From positions 372,001 through 436,000 of the forward strand of contig JAXHNP010000007.1 of assembly GCA_034520365.1 (NCBI GenBank): DNA of 64,000 nucleotides. The letters are read 5' to 3'. The notes under the pieces were generated by a model. The model did no database searches, was not told where the DNA came from, and saw nothing but the letters and a program-made list of their open reading frames with translations. The stretch's first letter is position 1. Each line of letters starts with the position of its first letter. The translations under genes were made by a program, and so were the position numbers. Of the stretch, positions 1,421 to 8,016 are shown piece by piece. This DNA is from Desulfobacterales bacterium (GTDB lineage: Bacteria > Desulfobacterota > Desulfobacteria > Desulfobacterales > Desulfosalsimonadaceae).

Positions 1421-2134
1421 ATGGAAATTAAATCTTCTGAAAATACCGATAAATATTTAAAAGCCCTGATGGATATCAGCCGGGCCATTAATTCGGATCG
1501 TTATCTGGAGGATATCCTCAAACTCATCGTTATGGTGACCGCCAAGGTCACGGGCGTTGAAATCTGCTCCCTCTGGCTGATCGATGAGGATAAGGAGCCC
1601 AAAGAGTTAAGGCTTAAAGCGACCCAGACCATTGATCCGGAATATGTTCAGGACCGGGTTCTGACCCTAAACGAAGGTGTGGTCGGTTATGTGGCCGCCC
1701 AGCAGCAGCCCCTGCTGATTCCTGATGTTCTGACGGAACCCCGGTTCAAAGAAAAGGAAATGGCCCGGAAACTGGGCCTTAAATCCCTGGCCAGCGTACC
1801 GCTTCAGGTCCGGGATGAGAAGGTGATCGGGGTGTTAAACTGTTTTACCTCGGAATACCACGACTTCACCGAAAACGAGGTGAACCTGATCAAGGCGGTG
1901 GCCAATCAGGCGGCAGTGGCCATTTTCAACTCTGAACTCATGGTCAAAACCCGGGTAATCCAGGAAGAGCTGGAAACCCGCAAACTGGTGGAGCGAAGCA
2001 AGGAAGTGCTGATGCGGCGGATGGATTTATCCGCTGAGGAAGCCCACCGGTGGATCCAGAAAAAAAGCATGGATAATAGAAAACCCATGCGCCAGGTGGC
2101 TGAGGCCATTTTACTATCTGAGGATATGTATTGA
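1421..2134 (+). CDS. GAF-ANTAR transcription antitermination regulator
   Basis: A GAF sensor domain spans about residues 12-170 (GVVGYVAAQQQPLLIPDV and SVPLQVRDEKVIGVLN segments). A short helical linker follows, then a C-terminal ANTAR domain (about 185-235). The ANTAR part is recognised from LMRRMDLSAEEAHRWIQ and the VAEAIL ending. ANTAR proteins bind paired hexaloop hairpins in nascent mRNA and prevent termination. Here the gene is followed within 60 bp by a leader with just such hairpins, ahead of a glutamate synthase-like gene. Regulation of nitrogen metabolism is typical of the family (NasR, AmiR, EutV). The ligand of the GAF domain is unknown. Protein length (237 aa) fits the GAF-ANTAR class. 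Confidence 0.85.
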   Translation: MEIKSSENTDKYLKALMDISRAINSDRYLEDILKLIVMVTAKVTGVEICSLWLIDEDKEPKELRLKATQTIDPEYVQDRVLTLNEGVVGYVAAQQQPLLIPDVLTEPRFKEKEMARKLGLKSLASVPLQVRDEKVIGVLNCFTSEYHDFTENEVNLIKAVANQAAVAIFNSELMVKTRVIQEELETRKLVERSKEVLMRRMDLSAEEAHRWIQKKSMDNRKPMRQVAEAILLSEDMY

Positions 2135-2150
2135 TACTTAATAAAAGCTA

Positions 2151-2179
2151 TTGACATTAAGTTTCGCTTTATGTAGAAA
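2151..2179 (+). promoter_or_regulatory. Sigma-70 type promoter for the glutamate synthase-like gene
   Basis: TTGACA at 2151-2156 and TAGAAA at 2174-2179 are separated by 17 bp. The -35 is a perfect consensus. Transcription would begin near 2186, just before the two leader hairpins, giving a leader of about 170 nt. Confidence 0.6.
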
Positions 2180-2189
2180 GCTCTTTTGA

Positions 2190-2265
2190 ATTCACACAAA
2201 GATGTGTGAATCTTTTTTTGTGACGAAGGCGTCTCTATCCGGCAGGATAGTAGGCGCTTTTTTTT
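2190..2265 (+). promoter_or_regulatory. Candidate ANTAR-responsive leader: two hairpins plus terminator
   Basis: Hairpin 1 (2190-2211) has an 8-bp perfect stem ATTCACAC/GTGTGAAT closing the hexaloop AAAGAT, with A at position 1 and G at position 4, the two loop bases conserved in known ANTAR targets; it is followed by TCTTTTTTT. A smaller hairpin, GACG/CGTC at 2222-2233, encloses a loop with G at position 4 of the six-base version but G, not A, at position 1. This second hairpin overlaps the 5' arm of a strong terminator (about 2229-2257, CTATCC/GGATAG core) ending in T8 at 2258-2265. Small hairpin and terminator are mutually exclusive, as in antitermination. The second loop is imperfect, and hairpin 1 alone could be the terminator of the upstream gene. 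Confidence 0.6.
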
Positions 2266-2355
2266 GTTCTTAAGCGCCCATCCATTGCCTCAGACGTAAC
2301 CTGTTAAAATAAAAACATATAAAAATATCTAAGAACAATTGGAAGGAGAAAAACC

Positions 2356-3993
2356 ATGCGATTTTCAAAAAACAATGATGTGCTGGGCACAACCAACCGG
2401 GGCAACCCCGCGGAATCCAGCCTGTGCACCCTATGCCGGGCGGACTGCCAGGGCAAATGCGAAACCTTCATGTCAAGCCTTGTGGGCAGAAAACTGCTCT
2501 ACCCCAGAAGCTTCGGCATTGTCACGGCCGGGGCCAACAATACCACCCATGTGGGCGCCTCCTATAATTCGCTTCGGATCCAGGGCTATGCCTACGGCTC
2601 CCACGGGCTGACCGCCGGACTATCCAGGGATCCGGATGACTGCCTGTTCACCAATGTCAGCCTGGAGTCCGAATTCGGCAAGGAAATCAAGACCAAGGCC
2701 CGGATGCCGCTGATGACCGGGGCTCTGGGATCAACCTTTGTGGCGGCCAAGTACTGGGATTCATTTGCCATCGGCGCATCCCTGGTGGGCATCCCCGTGG
2801 TTATCGGGGAAAACGTGGTGGGCGTTGACCGGGAGTCCGAGATGAGCAAGGGCAGAATCACCAAAGCCCCGGAGCTTGATCGCCGGATTGATTCCTACCT
2901 CCGCTACAACGACGGCTACGGCGCCATCATCATCCAGATGAACGTGGAGGACACCCGAAACGGCGTTGCCGAATATATCGCTGAAAAATACGGCAACAAA
3001 TGCATTCTCGAGCTCAAATGGGGCCAGGGCGCCAAGGATATCGGCGGCGAAATCCAGGTGACCAGCCTGGATTACGCAAAATTCCTGAAAGACCGGGGCT
3101 ACCTGGTGGATCCGGATCCTTATAAGGAATCCGTGCAGGAAGCCTTCAAACACGGCTCCATCCGGTCTTTTGCCCGCCACAGCCGCCTCGGGGCAACGGA
3201 TATGGACACCGTGGAGGCGGTTCGCGAATCCTTCATGCAGAGCGTGGAGTACCTGCGCAGCCTGGGATTCAAACGCATTTCCCTAAAAACCGGCTCTTAC
3301 GGCATGGAAGAGCTGGCCATGGCCATTAAATTCGCCGCTGAAGCCAGGCTTGACCTTTTGACCATTGACGGCTCCGGCGGCGGCACCGGTATGAGCCCCT
3401 GGAACATGATGCAGAGCTGGGGCGTTCCCTCGCTGCACCTGCATGCCAAAGCCCATGAATACAACAGCATTCTGGCCGCCCGCGGCGAGGACGTCGTGGA
3501 CCTCTCCTTTGCCGGCGGATTCGCCCTGGAAGATCATATTTTTAAAGCCATCGCCCTGGGCGCCCCGTATACCAAGCTGGTCTGCATGGGCCGGGCCATC
3601 ATGATCCCGGGTTTTCTGGGCTCAAACATCGAAGGCGCCCTGAATCCGGATCGAAAGGACAAAGTGGCCGGCAACTGGGATAAACTGCCGAAAACCGTAG
3701 GCGATCTGGGCAGTACGCCGGAAGAAATCTTTGCTTCCTATTATGATGTTCAGGCCAAGGTCGGCAAAGATGAAATGCAGAAGATCCCCTATGGGGCGAT
3801 TGCCTTCTGGACCCTGTCAGACAAATTGTCCTGCGGCTTGCAGCAGCTGATGGCCGGCGCCCGAAAATTCTCCCTGGACAAGATCGCGCGGGCGGATCTT
3901 TTTTCAGGTAACCAGGAAACCGCTGATATAACGGGCATTCCCATGGTGACCGAGGCAAACGACGAGTCTGCGAAAAAGATTCTGAATTCCTAA
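2356..3993 (+). CDS. FMN-dependent glutamate synthase-like protein
   Basis: The protein is 545 aa and resembles the FMN/synthase domain of GltB: IDGSGGGTGMSP carries the glycine-rich FMN/2-oxoglutarate region, and LKWGQGAKDIGG matches the conserved KxGQGAKPG-type segment. An N-terminal Cys cluster (CTLCRADCQGKC) may hold an Fe-S centre. There is no glutaminase domain and no GXGXG domain, so it would need ammonia or a partner. The start has a strong Shine-Dalgarno (AAGGAG, 8 nt before ATG). It is preceded by the terminator-type leader and the GAF-ANTAR gene, suggesting nitrogen-linked attenuation. It is separate from, and additional to, the three-gene glutamate synthase operon at 21-26 kb. Confidence 0.8.
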   Translation: MRFSKNNDVLGTTNRGNPAESSLCTLCRADCQGKCETFMSSLVGRKLLYPRSFGIVTAGANNTTHVGASYNSLRIQGYAYGSHGLTAGLSRDPDDCLFTNVSLESEFGKEIKTKARMPLMTGALGSTFVAAKYWDSFAIGASLVGIPVVIGENVVGVDRESEMSKGRITKAPELDRRIDSYLRYNDGYGAIIIQMNVEDTRNGVAEYIAEKYGNKCILELKWGQGAKDIGGEIQVTSLDYAKFLKDRGYLVDPDPYKESVQEAFKHGSIRSFARHSRLGATDMDTVEAVRESFMQSVEYLRSLGFKRISLKTGSYGMEELAMAIKFAAEARLDLLTIDGSGGGTGMSPWNMMQSWGVPSLHLHAKAHEYNSILAARGEDVVDLSFAGGFALEDHIFKAIALGAPYTKLVCMGRAIMIPGFLGSNIEGALNPDRKDKVAGNWDKLPKTVGDLGSTPEEIFASYYDVQAKVGKDEMQKIPYGAIAFWTLSDKLSCGLQQLMAGARKFSLDKIARADLFSGNQETADITGIPMVTEANDESAKKILNS

Positions 3994-4103: not shown

Positions 4104-4702
4104 TTTCGATTTCGATCCCGATCCCGATAGCGATTTCGATTTGGATACAGAACAAATCCATACCCCCGGTCCTGTTAACGCTAAAGTTGGGATTCGTTTT
4201 CTTCGCTATCGGGATCGAAATCGGGATCGAAATCGGGATCGAAATCGCTATCGGGATCGAAATCGATGCTGTAGACTTCCTGATCCTCTCGAACTTGGTA
4301 TCCTCTTCCGCCGAGACGGCTGAGCATCGCGGCCATACGGTCGATTTCATCCTTGCGGTTCCGGCTTTCCATCTTGTCCAGCGCCTTGCCGACAACCAGC
4401 ACATCTTGAATCGCCACGCACTCAAGCGCGGAGCCACGAGCGATTTCGAAATAACGCCTTCGGTCGGCTTCCGCGGTCTTGCCATTACCTTCGGCGATAT
4501 TGAGCGGTATCGACTGGCTGGCCCGAAGCCATTGATCCCGGGCGGGCCGATGGACTCCGTTCAGGCTGTCGGCCTTCTCGTAAACCCATGCAACGTAGCC
4601 TATTGAAAGGCGATAGACGTCCAGTTTTTCGCGTCCAAGGGTCATATTTTTTCGATTTCGATCCCGATAGCGATTTCGATTTGGATACAGAACAAATTTA
4701 CC
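4104..4702 (-). mobile_element. Repeat-bounded S23 cassette, copy A (degenerate ends)
   Basis: From left to right this block holds the inverted 12-mer array of a lost neighbouring cassette (4104-4146), the junction ACAGAACAAATCCATACCCC, a 12-mer array (GATCGAAATCGG type, 4197-4265), the S23 gene, the inverted 12-mer array (about 4650-4685) and a decayed right terminus AGAACAAATTTACCCTT. The same order is found in copies B and C. No target duplication is visible here, and the left end is joined to a REP core, so this copy is probably rearranged. Confidence 0.6.
4181..4645 (-). CDS. S23-type four-helix-bundle protein, copy A
   Basis: The 154-aa protein belongs to the four-helix-bundle (23S rRNA intervening sequence, S23) family, recognised from SIPLNIAEGNGK and the RYFEIARGSALEC segment. 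Family members occur inside 23S rRNA intervening sequences and as free genes; their function is unsettled. The C-terminal tail is a run of DFDPDSDFDPD units encoded by the 12-bp repeat array, so its length varies with repeat number (longest in this copy). No Shine-Dalgarno is evident before the ATG. Copies B and C at 6889 and 7400 are nearly identical; this copy differs at a few residues (for example GSALECVAI instead of SSALECAAI). Confidence 0.75.
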   Translation of the reverse strand: MTLGREKLDVYRLSIGYVAWVYEKADSLNGVHRPARDQWLRASQSIPLNIAEGNGKTAEADRRRYFEIARGSALECVAIQDVLVVGKALDKMESRNRKDEIDRMAAMLSRLGGRGYQVREDQEVYSIDFDPDSDFDPDFDPDFDPDSEENESQL

Positions 4703-4724
4703 CTTCAGCCGCCGCCATCCCGGC

Positions 4725-4754
4725 TTGACATCTGACGATTTTTCAAATTATATA
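4725..4754 (+). promoter_or_regulatory. Candidate sigma-70 promoter for thiD
   Basis: TTGACA at 4725-4730 and TATATA at 4749-4754 with an 18-bp spacer lie 75 bp before the thiD start. No TPP riboswitch signature was seen in this leader. Confidence 0.5.
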
Positions 4755-4827
4755 CAATAAAAGACCCAATACCTGGTACCCAACACCCAAGACCCAAATA
4801 GATGCCGAATGATCCGGAAAATCCTTC

Positions 4828-5676
4828 ATGAATGAGACGCGGGCAATACCTTCCGTTCTGACCATTGCGGGCTCGGACCCCTCCGGCGGCGCCGGCATTC
4901 AGGCGGATCTGAAAGCGTTTGTCACGACCGGTGCATACGGGGCGGCCGTAATCACCGGCCTGACCGCCCAGAACACCATGGAGGTCTCAGGCACGCTGCC
5001 TGTGCCGCCGGAATTTGTGGAAAAGCAGCTGAGTGCGGTTTTATCCGATATCCGAATTGATGTCATCAAGCTCGGCATGCTGACCAGCCGGGAAATCTGC
5101 GAGGTGATTGCCCCGTTTTTAAAAGATCGCCTGGTGGTCTGCGATCCGGTCATGATCTCCACCACCGGCTATCAGTTAATTGATGAGGATACGGCACAGG
5201 CCCTTATAAGCGGCATCCTTCCGATAGCTGACCATATCACGCCCAACCGGTTTGAGCTGGAAAAGCTCTATGGCGGCCCTGCCGGGGACATTTTGGCGGC
5301 AGGCCGTGAACTGATGGGACGGTTTAACAATTTGGACGGAATAGTCCTTAAAGGCGGGCACATCCATACGGATGCATCGACAGTGACCGATACGCTGCTT
5401 TATCGAAAAAACGGCCAAATCCAGGAAGCGGCTGAAAGCCGGCCGCGCTATGACACACCCAATACGCACGGCACCGGCTGTACCTTTGCCTCAGCCTTTG
5501 CCTCATTTCTGGCCCAGGGAAACATTCCGGTACAGGCCTTTTCCAAAGCGGTGGATTATACGAATTGCTTGATCGGCCTATCCGCAGACATCCGCATCGG
5601 GCATGGCCGGGGGCCGCTGATGCATCACTTATCTCCCGCCATGCCCGGCCATTTTGACAGCGGATCGGTTGATTGA
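4828..5676 (+). CDS. thiD: Hydroxymethylpyrimidine/phosphomethylpyrimidine kinase
   Basis: The protein phosphorylates HMP and then HMP-P to HMP-PP for thiamin synthesis in the cytoplasm. Ribokinase-fold motifs are complete: the N-terminal TIAGSDPSGGAGIQADLK segment that binds the pyrimidine, DPVMISTTG in the middle, and HGTGCTFASA with the catalytic GTGC anion-hole loop near residue 213. Length (282 aa) is slightly above the family norm of about 265. The gene stands alone with no other thi gene nearby. Its 3' end overlaps the convergent isochorismatase-like gene by 52 bp. Confidence 0.93.
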   Translation: MNETRAIPSVLTIAGSDPSGGAGIQADLKAFVTTGAYGAAVITGLTAQNTMEVSGTLPVPPEFVEKQLSAVLSDIRIDVIKLGMLTSREICEVIAPFLKDRLVVCDPVMISTTGYQLIDEDTAQALISGILPIADHITPNRFELEKLYGGPAGDILAAGRELMGRFNNLDGIVLKGGHIHTDASTVTDTLLYRKNGQIQEAAESRPRYDTPNTHGTGCTFASAFASFLAQGNIPVQAFSKAVDYTNCLIGLSADIRIGHGRGPLMHHLSPAMPGHFDSGSVD

Positions 5677-6665
5677 ACCAGGTGCATGCCGGCTTCGGCA
5701 AATCTTTGGAAAATCTCATCGGATTCATCCGTATAGTCCACCACGTCCGGCACCACCACCGGAGATGTGCAGTCCTCCAGAATATAGACCTTCTCGACCA
5801 GCCTACGGTCATAAGCCATCACATCATCCAGGAGATCCGAAACCGTCCAGGCCACGCAATGGCTTTTGGCCTGCCCGGCGATCACCACCGCATCGTTTTG
5901 GATGAGCTTGTTTAAAATCTTCTCGTTTTTCTCCGCCAGCTGGCGTCCCCGGGGATCCCGGGTCACTTCCGGGCCCAGCACGGAATAATGCTCGGTAAAG
6001 GGATTCTCCCCTTTTACATGGTAATCCGGCTGGGTAGAGCGCGCGATGGAATGAAAAAACAGGGCCTCTTCCACCGCGGGGACCAGGGCGTGCCCAAGCC
6101 CGCCGATCATGGCGTGATAGGGCCAGATGATATAGTCATATTTGCCGGACGCTTTGAGCTGCCGGGCATAATGGTGCAAATACTGCTGACCGTATTCCGG
6201 TGTGATATTTAAAGTATCCGCCAGCTTTTCATTAAACCGCCAGCGGCCTTGTTCAATATCTGCTTCCGTTACAATGGTAAGCGGCGCCGGGTGCTCGCCC
6301 TTATCGTTTACGAGAAAAATATTGTGGAACACCTGGATCGGATAATGGGTATCCATGGTGGGCACGGCTTCCGTAATGGCATGCAGATGCCGGTAGATAA
6401 ACCGGCAGAGCCGGACATTGTCATCCACCGCCCCGGTACCGGAGCGGCCGGCCACATAGAGTTCATAGCCGGGGATGCAGAAGGTGTTCTGAACATCGAC
6501 CAAGAGCAGGCAGAGCTTAAAGCGGTCTTTGCCCGCCCCCTGGATTTGATGCTTTTGCGCCCATTTTTCCGCTTCGACCGCCTTATCCGCATAGTCCACC
6601 CGCCAGACATCGCCCACCTTTTCCGGGTCAAAATGCTCCGGGATCGGCAGTTCCTTAACAGCCAT
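5625..6665 (-). CDS. Isochorismatase-like cysteine hydrolase
   Basis: The 346-aa protein has the isochorismatase/nicotinamidase fold. LLLVDVQNTFC gives the catalytic Asp near residue 57, and AGQAKSHCVAWT gives the nucleophilic Cys with the cis-peptide loop. It is much longer than nicotinamidases (about 210 aa), with extra N- and C-terminal segments, so the substrate is not predicted. The start at 6665 was chosen because AGGAGAG lies 8 nt upstream; the frame stays open further upstream only because it runs antisense through the S23 gene at 6889. It converges on and overlaps thiD by 52 bp at the 3' ends. Confidence 0.85.
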   Translation of the reverse strand: MAVKELPIPEHFDPEKVGDVWRVDYADKAVEAEKWAQKHQIQGAGKDRFKLCLLLVDVQNTFCIPGYELYVAGRSGTGAVDDNVRLCRFIYRHLHAITEAVPTMDTHYPIQVFHNIFLVNDKGEHPAPLTIVTEADIEQGRWRFNEKLADTLNITPEYGQQYLHHYARQLKASGKYDYIIWPYHAMIGGLGHALVPAVEEALFFHSIARSTQPDYHVKGENPFTEHYSVLGPEVTRDPRGRQLAEKNEKILNKLIQNDAVVIAGQAKSHCVAWTVSDLLDDVMAYDRRLVEKVYILEDCTSPVVVPDVVDYTDESDEIFQRFAEAGMHLVQSTDPLSKWPGMAGDK

Positions 6666-6888
6666 CAGGGTCTCTCCTTTCTGTATGTTATCTTGCGTGG
6701 CATTAAATAACACCCGTTTACCGGGCTGTCTTGTAAACCCCAATAAACATATAATATTTATATTATAAAAGCGTTCCGGAATGGTGTCAAAAACCTGCGG
6801 AATCCGGAATCTATGTCTCAGGGAAAAGGACTGCCAACACGGTGAATTTGTTCTAACCGCAAAATCCATACCCCCGGTCCTGTTAACG

Positions 6889-7323
6889 CTAAGGTTGGGA
6901 TTCGTTTTCTTCGGGATCGAAATCGCTATCGGGATCGAAATCGATGCTGTAGACTTCCTGATCCTTTCGAACTTGGTATCCTCTTCCGCCGAGACGGCTG
7001 AGCATCGCGGCCATACGGTCGAGTTCATCCTTGCGGTTCCGGCTTTCCATCTTGTCCAGCGCCTTGCCGACAACCAGCACATCTTGAATCGCCGCGCACT
7101 CAAGCGCGGAGCTACGAGCGATTTCGAAATAACGCCTTCGGTCGGCTTCCGCGGTCTTGCCATTACCTTCGGCGATATTGAGCGGTATCGACTGGCTGGC
7201 CCGAAGCCATTGATCCCGGGCGGGCCGATGGACTCCGTTCAGGCTGTCGGCCTTCTCGTAAACCCATGCAACGTAGCCTATTGAAAGGCGATAGACGTCC
7301 AGTTTTTCGTGTTCAAGGGTCAT
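6889..7323 (-). CDS. S23-type four-helix-bundle protein, copy B
   Basis: The 144-aa protein is nearly identical to copies A and C, with the S23 hallmark SIPLNIAEGNGKTAEADRRR. The acidic tail encoded by the 12-mer array is the shortest of the three (one DFDPDSDFDP unit). The ATG at 7323 aligns with the starts of the other copies; the frame upstream of it is the inverted 12-mer array and the tail of copy C and is not counted as coding. No Shine-Dalgarno is visible, so translation may be weak or coupled to structure. Confidence 0.7.
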   Translation of the reverse strand: MTLEHEKLDVYRLSIGYVAWVYEKADSLNGVHRPARDQWLRASQSIPLNIAEGNGKTAEADRRRYFEIARSSALECAAIQDVLVVGKALDKMESRNRKDELDRMAAMLSRLGGRGYQVRKDQEVYSIDFDPDSDFDPEENESQP

Positions 7324-7399
7324 ATTTTTTTCGATCCCGATCCCGATAGCGATTTCGATTTGGATACAGAACAAATCCATACCCCCGGTCCTGTTAACG

Positions 7400-7846
7400 C
7401 TAAGGTTGGGATTCGTTTTCCTCGGGATCGAAATCGGGATCGAAATCGCTATCGGGATCGAAATCGATGCTGTAGACTTCCTGATCCTCTCGAACTTGGT
7501 ATCCTCTTCCGCCGAGACGGCTGAGCATCGCGGCCATACGGTCGAGTTCATCCTTGCGGTTCCGGCTTTCCATCTTGTCCAGCGCCTTGCCGACAACCAG
7601 CACATCTTGAATCGCCGCGCACTCAAGCGCGGAGCTACGAGCGATTTCGAAATAACGCCTTCGGTCGGCTTCCGCGGTCTTGCCATTACCTTCGGCGATA
7701 TTGAGCGGTATCGACTGGCTGGCCCGAAGCCATTGAGCCCGGGCGGGCCGATGGACTCCGTTCAGGCTGTCGGCCTTCTCGTAAACCCATGCAACGTAGC
7801 CTATTGAAAGGCGATAGACGTCCAGTTTTTCGCGTCCAAGGTTCAT
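7400..7846 (-). CDS. S23-type four-helix-bundle protein, copy C
   Basis: The 148-aa protein lies upstream of copy B in the same element. It starts MNLGREKLD; the C-terminal acidic tail has one more 12-bp unit than copy B and fewer than copy A. The near identity of the three copies points to recent duplication or gene conversion. Function unknown; the S23 family is classically linked to intervening sequences in 23S rRNA, but no rRNA gene is near. Confidence 0.7.
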   Translation of the reverse strand: MNLGREKLDVYRLSIGYVAWVYEKADSLNGVHRPARAQWLRASQSIPLNIAEGNGKTAEADRRRYFEIARSSALECAAIQDVLVVGKALDKMESRNRKDELDRMAAMLSRLGGRGYQVREDQEVYSIDFDPDSDFDPDFDPEENESQP

Positions 7847-8016
7847 ATTTTTTTCGATTTCGATCCCGATCCCGATAGCGATTTCGATTTGGATACAGAA
7901 CAAATTTACCGTGGGACTGCCAATCAGAGGCTTGCCTTTTGGCGGATGGGGTGTTAGGCAATAGGTTTCTATTTAACAATTAAAACCGATAATAAATAAA
8001 GAGATCCTGCTGCCTG

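Follow-up and report, generated by a model that had tools for sequence, protein, structure and literature searches.

A GAF-ANTAR regulator beside a terminator-overlapping two-hairpin leader of a glutamate synthase-like gene in sulfate-reducing bacteria

The stretch of DNA analysed here, called the window, comprises 64,000 nucleotides of the Desulfobacterales bacterium assembly GCA_034520365.1 (contig JAXHNP010000007.1, positions 372,001–436,000, forward strand), a genome of 4.33 Mb that is 99.4% complete. Three elements follow one another on its forward strand: a gene for a one-component regulator of 237 amino acids with GAF and ANTAR domains (1421–2134), a leader with two hairpins and an intrinsic terminator, and a gene for a flavin mononucleotide (FMN) glutamate synthase-like protein of 545 amino acids (2356–3993). 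In a preliminary description of the sequence the leader had been taken as the likely RNA target of the neighboring regulator. The analysis presented here makes it highly probable that the GAF-ANTAR protein is the antiterminator of the adjacent glutamate synthase-like gene.

The domains of the regulator are as first described. Pfam matches the GAF domain at E 3.5e-23 and the ANTAR domain at E 9.9e-19, the latter (PF03861) with 67.3 bits against a gathering cut-off of 27.3. The GAF domain occupies residues 29–168, a continuous helix residues 151–201 and the ANTAR domain residues 180–231, and the GAF domain, this helix and the ANTAR helices are seen in an AlphaFold2 model (mean predicted local distance difference test score, pLDDT, 83.9). 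It is the sole ANTAR protein found in the genome. Four residues by which EutV contacts RNA (R142, K143, M172 and R175) correspond to R187, K188, M217 and R220, invariant in 81, 81, 80 and 80 aligned sequences, respectively; a further contact, K147, is replaced by R. For these positions a two-residue offset in numbering between the EutV PDB chain and the paper is our own reading.

With respect to the sensor, NifA (9.9e-17) and NF008283 (2.3e-15) are the curated profiles that match the GAF part best, both far below their own cut-offs; NF008283 is a phosphoenolpyruvate-protein phosphotransferase profile that we take to be PtsP. The first fold match of the GAF part is an HD-GYP protein, the second and fourth are PtsP-type GAF structures, and cyclic-nucleotide GAF domains are also among the matches. 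Glutamine binding by PtsP requires its GAF domain (PMC4848567). Our guess is that the signal is glutamine or 2-oxoglutarate.

The leader has a -35-like TTGACA at 2151–2156, assigned to a promoter of its own. A candidate -10 near 2174–2179 (TAGAAA) is weak, and the leader promoter of the window fails a consensus promoter scan. The first hairpin, P1 (2190–2211), consists of eight base pairs (arms 2190–2197 and 2204–2211) and the hexaloop AAAGAT (2198–2203), with A at position 1 and G at position 4 (G4), as initially noted; it was found by folding, in the two-hairpin scan and in the core test described below. A linker of 10 nt containing T7 (2212–2221) leads to P2 (2222–2233), a hairpin of three base pairs (arms 2222–2224 and 2231–2233) with the hexaloop GAAGGC (2225–2230), in which G4 is present and position 1 is G. 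P2 was found in the same scan and core test and in folding of the growing transcript. The intrinsic terminator (2225–2265) is formed by a stem-loop at 2225–2261 and T8 at 2258–2265. Since the stem-loop consumes the whole loop and 3' arm of P2, the two structures are mutually exclusive; this part of the preliminary description was upheld by folding. The ribosome-binding site GGAAGGAG (2341–2348), read from the sequence, lies 75 nt past the terminator.

The leader (2185–2272) folds with z = -4.98, and none of 200 shuffles was equally stable. In folding of the growing transcript, P1 appears first, P2 is present at 2234, and the terminator replaces P2 by 2258. The terminator fold reaches -29.3 kcal/mol at 2258 compared to -21.5 for the P2 fold at 2252; for the complete stretch the values are -32.4 kcal/mol and, with P2 enforced, -21.5.

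The downstream gene retains its first description in part. Its family label rests on PF01645, matched at 1e-14 over residues 291–417, a partial match to the FMN synthase domain, and the protein has an N-terminal CxxCxxxCxxxC; all 25 of the 25 sequences compared have C24, C27, C31, C35 and C410. There is no Pfam match to a class II glutaminase (GATase) domain in the same chain, and the protein is therefore named glutamate synthase-like only. The fold matches of its model, in which 152 of the 545 residues have pLDDT <50, are FMN TIM barrels with glutamate synthase 6s6s in sixth place, and a PDB sequence search returned nothing at E 0.01. A role in glutamate formation is supported by loci at which the same regulator or motif is followed by a glutamate enzyme instead. 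These enzymes are canonical GltB in locus L042 (same contig as L121; loci of this study are numbered with L) and glutamate dehydrogenase, identified by Pfam in L062 and L161 and by eye in L120 and in L052, which shares its contig with L149. In L162 the enzyme is a ferredoxin-type GltB, preceded there by an open reading frame (ORF) that was read as a class II amidotransferase and has no Pfam match. The leader marks the putative glutamate-forming gene of a sulfate reducer, be it GltB-like, GltB or a dehydrogenase.

Conservation was studied in the best 80 of 92 loci found with a regulator homologue (62–90% identity), among which the nearest relatives of the regulator are in Desulfobacterales metagenome bins. 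In 36 of the 80 the regulator homologue is followed, on its own strand and at most 1500 nt downstream, by an enzyme homologue; the other 44 often have a contig end or a different gene after the regulator, and in 11 of these the motif lies elsewhere or ahead of a different gene. The window and the 36 enzyme-adjacent loci give 37 regulator-enzyme intergenic regions. As a test of its proposal the preliminary description had asked whether orthologous leaders conserve the loop bases and the overlapping hairpin, and they conserve both. Two copies of the ten-base core ACRANGNNGT, the only feature fixed in a test independent of any covariance model, occur in 36 of the 37 regions, compared to 0.015 expected; the exception, L070, has one such core together with a copy that deviates at a single base. 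In 37/37 regions P2 is overlapped by a terminator stem of 8 pairs or longer (3.5% in shuffled controls), and TTGAC is present 30–100 nt upstream of the P1 core in 37/37 (6.7% in shuffled upstream stretches). Loop position 1 is A in 36/37 regions for P1 and in 34/37 for P2; the three with G in P2 include the window.

P1 pairs 3–8 from the loop, which lie outside the selected core, are kept in 36, 36, 33, 31, 28 and 21 of 36 regions, above the level in cross-locus combinations of the arms (83, 70, 50, 73, 41 and 36%). The two-hairpin scan yielded 48 rows, which came from 42 of 81 sources; five first-order Markov copies of the 80 loci, scanned on both strands, yielded none. The covariance-model search called for at the outset found the motif between the genes in 35 of the 36 enzyme-adjacent loci, many of which had served to train the model; L065, which has no match, carries both loop cores. 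Alignment A1 held 28 of 40 candidate references, without L033, L051, L052, L061, L062, L063, L065, L069, L070, L072, L075 and L077. Its rows were chosen for closing pairs, A or G at loop position 1 with G4, at least 5 pairs in P1 and 8 or more in the terminator stem. Pair counts on this alignment are therefore partly circular and were not relied on.

The leaders of the relatives vary in other ways. Many of the 37 share, by eye, AAGTAT-N-GCTAAAA-like letters between TTGACA and P1 (2157–2180 in the window), which may be a conserved promoter or operator. The T run after P1 is missing in L001 and L002, the two closest relatives of the regulator among the 80 loci. L021 (3675–3825) and L165 have a tandem pair of leaders before one gene. 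In L080, from Desulfatibacillum alkenivorans, the motif is present along with two copies of the enzyme. A second leader type is seen in L051, L061, L062, L063, L065, L069, L072 and L075, with the P1 stem GTAATAC/GTATTAC and a 4-nt linker; several of these have an extra hexaloop hairpin, often AAAGAT, within the terminator.

Surveys were made of 116 genomes of the order and 198 of the phylum, together with a class-level run of 291; motif cut-offs were E 0.01, 1e-4 and 1e-3, respectively, and enzyme homologues were taken at E 1e-50. Among the loci added in these surveys, at least 16 contain sequence already represented in the first 80, and some surveyed genomes repeat species of the covariance model's training set, so that these searches are not independent of that set. 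In the window's genome there is a single strong motif (E 1.1e-11; 150 of 1179 first-look candidates were scored). A second match, L083 (E 0.36), at the terminator of a gene that by eye resembles one for a cold-shock protein, was taken as chance. One ANTAR protein and one convincing motif in the genome indicate a private circuit. The preliminary description had held that this circuit could be read directly, which is true of the adjacent sensor, switch and enzyme but not of the signal bound by the GAF domain.

In the order the motif was found in 62 genomes and ANTAR in 64, both together in 55 and neither in 45 (Fisher 9e-16). The enzyme is present in 75 of the 116 genomes. Where ANTAR is also present, the motif lies within 600 nt upstream of the enzyme in 46 of 51 genomes, compared to 2 of 24 without ANTAR (G031, 65% complete, and G096; Fisher 3.6e-12). 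Across the phylum the motif was found in 39 genomes, 34 of which have ANTAR, compared to 82 of all 198; outside the order the figure is 29 of 34 motif genomes (Fisher 6e-9). The class-level run found the motif in 144 of 291 genomes. In sulfate-reducing bacteria the sensor and its probable target are thus paired one to one, and this pairing is conserved. With one obvious target for this GAF-ANTAR protein and no other ANTAR match in the window's genome, both its ligand and its RNA are cleanly testable.

In the proposed mechanism, the leader transcript would by default fold P1 and then, briefly, P2; the more stable terminator would displace P2, and polymerase would stop at 2258–2265. On receipt of a signal by the GAF domain, an ANTAR dimer would bind the hexaloops, with A or G at position 1 and G4, and hold P2. 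The terminator could then not form, and the glutamate synthase-like gene would be transcribed. Since P2 is transient in the growing transcript, termination would be averted if a protein kept P2 in place, as has been proposed for EutV (PMC3369931, PMC8934654). Binding, dimerisation and the activating sign of the regulation would be expected by analogy with EutV, NasR and AmiR.

A number of observations weigh against antitermination by the GAF-ANTAR protein. By the rules for dual hexaloops, the window has two stems of at least 3 bp (8 in P1, 3 in P2), G4 in both loops, a P2 that overlaps an intrinsic terminator, and a linker within the 5–12 nt of the Enterococcus faecalis eut leaders, but the A required at position 1 of both loops is replaced by G in P2. 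For this reason the leader is classed as a variant and not as a strict member, and the ANTAR antitermination layout first described holds for the dual hairpins, G4, terminator overlap and co-occurrence with ANTAR but not for this base. Among the 37 regions the linker ranges from 4 to 27 nt; it is at most 12 nt in 13 and at least 14 nt in 22, and a 14-nt linker impaired eutP induction in E. faecalis (PMC3369931, PMC8934654). The pairing of P2 is without covariation support, its two inner pairs being set by the search pattern, the third invariant, and the fourth kept in 23/36 regions, hardly above the cross-locus 57%. In EutV, E160 contacts G4, and an alanine mutant bound 60-fold less (PMC3369931, PMC8934654). 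The equivalent in the regulator is A205; of the 81 family sequences, 54 have G at this position and 22 have A, with E (36/81) or D (27/81) at the next residue; AmiR and NasR, aligned with the same numbering offset, both retain E. It follows that recognition of G4 must differ in detail. Y164, N173 and R177 of EutV are changed to H, D and P; AmiR and NasR also deviate at 164 and 173, and AmiR at 177. In the order, 7 of 116 genomes have the motif without ANTAR and 9 have ANTAR without the motif, and the Fisher values ignore shared ancestry. P1 with CTTTTTTT (2190–2219) also scores as a terminator in the scan. The system is a variant of ANTAR antitermination, with an off-consensus P2 loop, a GAF sensor and an altered G4 contact, and the P2 loop leaves the claim of ANTAR-like function unaffected.

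The alternative that survives best, though an unlikely one, is that the ANTAR protein binds the motif with a different outcome, favoring termination or affecting translation. The sign of regulation is not readable from the sequence, and ANTAR regulation has been described for translation as well as for transcription (PMC8164766). The overlap of P2 with the terminator in every one of the 37 regions argues the other way, since stabilisation of P2 should then relieve the terminator, as does the distance of the ribosome-binding site from the terminator. That the hairpins are a mere terminator of the regulator gene, with loops that resemble the ANTAR target by chance, is very improbable and in our view already contradicted: they do lie just past the regulator stop codon, and P1 does score as a terminator, but the loops are conserved far above chance, a TTGAC box precedes P1 throughout, the same leader also stands at genes not preceded by the regulator (for example glutamate dehydrogenase and MvhD-MetV-MetF), and 22 of the 24 genomes that have the enzyme but no ANTAR lack it ahead of that gene. 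A ligand-binding RNA, riboswitch or T-box, that works the terminator without protein is scarcely credible despite the position of leader and terminator before a biosynthetic gene, given that only tRNA (two matches) reaches the Rfam gathering score in the window and that the motif tracks the ANTAR gene across order and phylum.

Antitermination by the GAF-ANTAR protein may extend to other genes in relatives. The order search gave 83 motif matches, 34 of them not beside the enzyme. Targets were tallied for the 66 matches at E ≤1e-5, the 17 weaker ones being excluded, and were assigned to families by Pfam on examples and by eye for the remainder. The enzyme follows 44 of the 66. The other 22 precede MvhD-MetV(-MetF) genes (10), ferredoxin GltB clusters (4), glutamate dehydrogenase (2), GltB (1), a GXGXG protein whose GATase match is below threshold (1) and a receiver-like ORF at a contig end (1), or lie at contig ends (2) or in an unclear place (1). 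Pfam found FlpD (MvhD) in L166, L135, L139, L189 and L193, the MetV-type C-terminal domain in L166 and L189, and MTHFR in L166 and L113.

With matches up to E 0.01, the motif stands before MvhD-MetV(-MetF) in 12 of the 116 order genomes (L113, L115, L135, L139, L140, L147, L152, L154, L163, L165, L166 and L168). MetV of these 12 falls in a subgroup, present in 23 genomes, whose members share at least 63% identity with the L166 protein; within it ANTAR is found in 10 of 12 genomes with the motif and in 4 of 11 without, a modest association (Fisher 0.036). The weak matches L153, L155 and L157–L160 were judged spurious, and L156 (E 0.00145), with an MvhD-like ORF followed by a protein other than MetV, was not counted. 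Desulforapulum autotrophicum, the organism with which L073 is labelled, is among the strains that have this second target. A similar arrangement is seen outside the order in L189 and L193; in L193 a distance of 511 nt separates the motif from the MvhD ORF, and no ANTAR match was obtained in that genome, which is 84% complete. At E 1e-10 four MetV homologues are found in the window's genome, of which the best has 52% identity, with no motif match at E 1 before any of them; only the glutamate arm of such a regulon is present there. In the phylum search, 14 of 22 examined motif matches (of 48 listed) precede an enzyme homologue, and other targets are glutamine synthetase in L187 and, in L184, a porin-like gene with a P-II gene behind it. 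The latter would fit nitrogen control of the kind known from GnfL/GnfR of Geobacter, a two-component system in which nitrogen genes are under ANTAR control.

The leaders before MvhD-MetV-MetF are possibly a new branch of the regulon, with a function in one-carbon metabolism rather than nitrogen, since these are methylene-tetrahydrofolate reductase operons. They suggest that nitrogen control is connected with the methyl branch of one-carbon metabolism. The chances appear to be about even that a GAF-ANTAR nitrogen sensor of Desulfobacterota governs, through the same leader, the glutamate-forming enzyme of any type and the MvhD-MetV-MetF operon, tying one-carbon reduction to nitrogen status.

Other features of the window lie to either side of this locus. 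Directly upstream of the regulator is a gene (141–1403) for a 420-residue protein without a significant Pfam match, in which the stretches ADIRGSS and GDAVILSIFE recall, by eye, nucleotide cyclases. It was rejected as a partner of the regulator, being adjacent in only 7 of the 80 loci (several loci end there). Downstream, at 4126–7905, four exact copies of a 32-base repeat adjoin near-identical genes for 23S rRNA intervening-sequence proteins (PF05635; 4181–4645 and 7400–7903), and reading frames related to these genes also occur near 6.9 kb.

The open-access literature searched does not describe GAF-ANTAR paired with glutamate synthase in sulfate reducers, and contains nothing that joins the ANTAR domain, sulfate reduction and glutamate. 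It likewise has no report of MetVF as ANTAR targets; the main text of PMC3369931 has no folate, hydrogenase, MetV or MvhD, although its supplementary hit list, not covered by the search, may contain these targets or organisms. Among the papers listed for MetV, MvhD and ANTAR, only PMC6436200 mentions ANTAR, with respect to ethanolamine genes. In 2012 no ANTAR domain joined to PAS or GAF had yet been characterised (PMC3369931), and in 2020 two characterised one-component ANTAR proteins were mentioned, one of them PAL, with PAS and LOV (PMC7496416).

The kind of switch is already known, since Ramesh and colleagues defined the motif and found it before nitrogen genes, including the glutamate synthase genes of Desulfotomaculum reducens (PMC3369931). 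The leader of the window shares with EutV and the eutP leader of E. faecalis the dual hexaloop with G4 and a P2 that overlaps an intrinsic terminator (PMC3369931, PMC8934654), and the regulator shares the four ANTAR contacts given above. The two systems differ in that EutV is a phosphorylated response regulator whereas the window encodes a GAF one-component protein, in the G at position 1 of P2, in the longer linkers of many relatives, and in the lack of conservation of E160. NasR is likewise a one-component ANTAR regulator, but with a NIT sensor domain that responds to nitrate (PMC7496416). The ANTAR motifs predicted before glutamate synthase in D. reducens and nitrogenase in Pelobacter carbinolicus represent the same RNA motif and the same functional theme (PMC3369931). 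Those are predicted regulons of multiple units, whereas in the window the regulator lies next to the sole target it has, and this pairing is repeated across the order.

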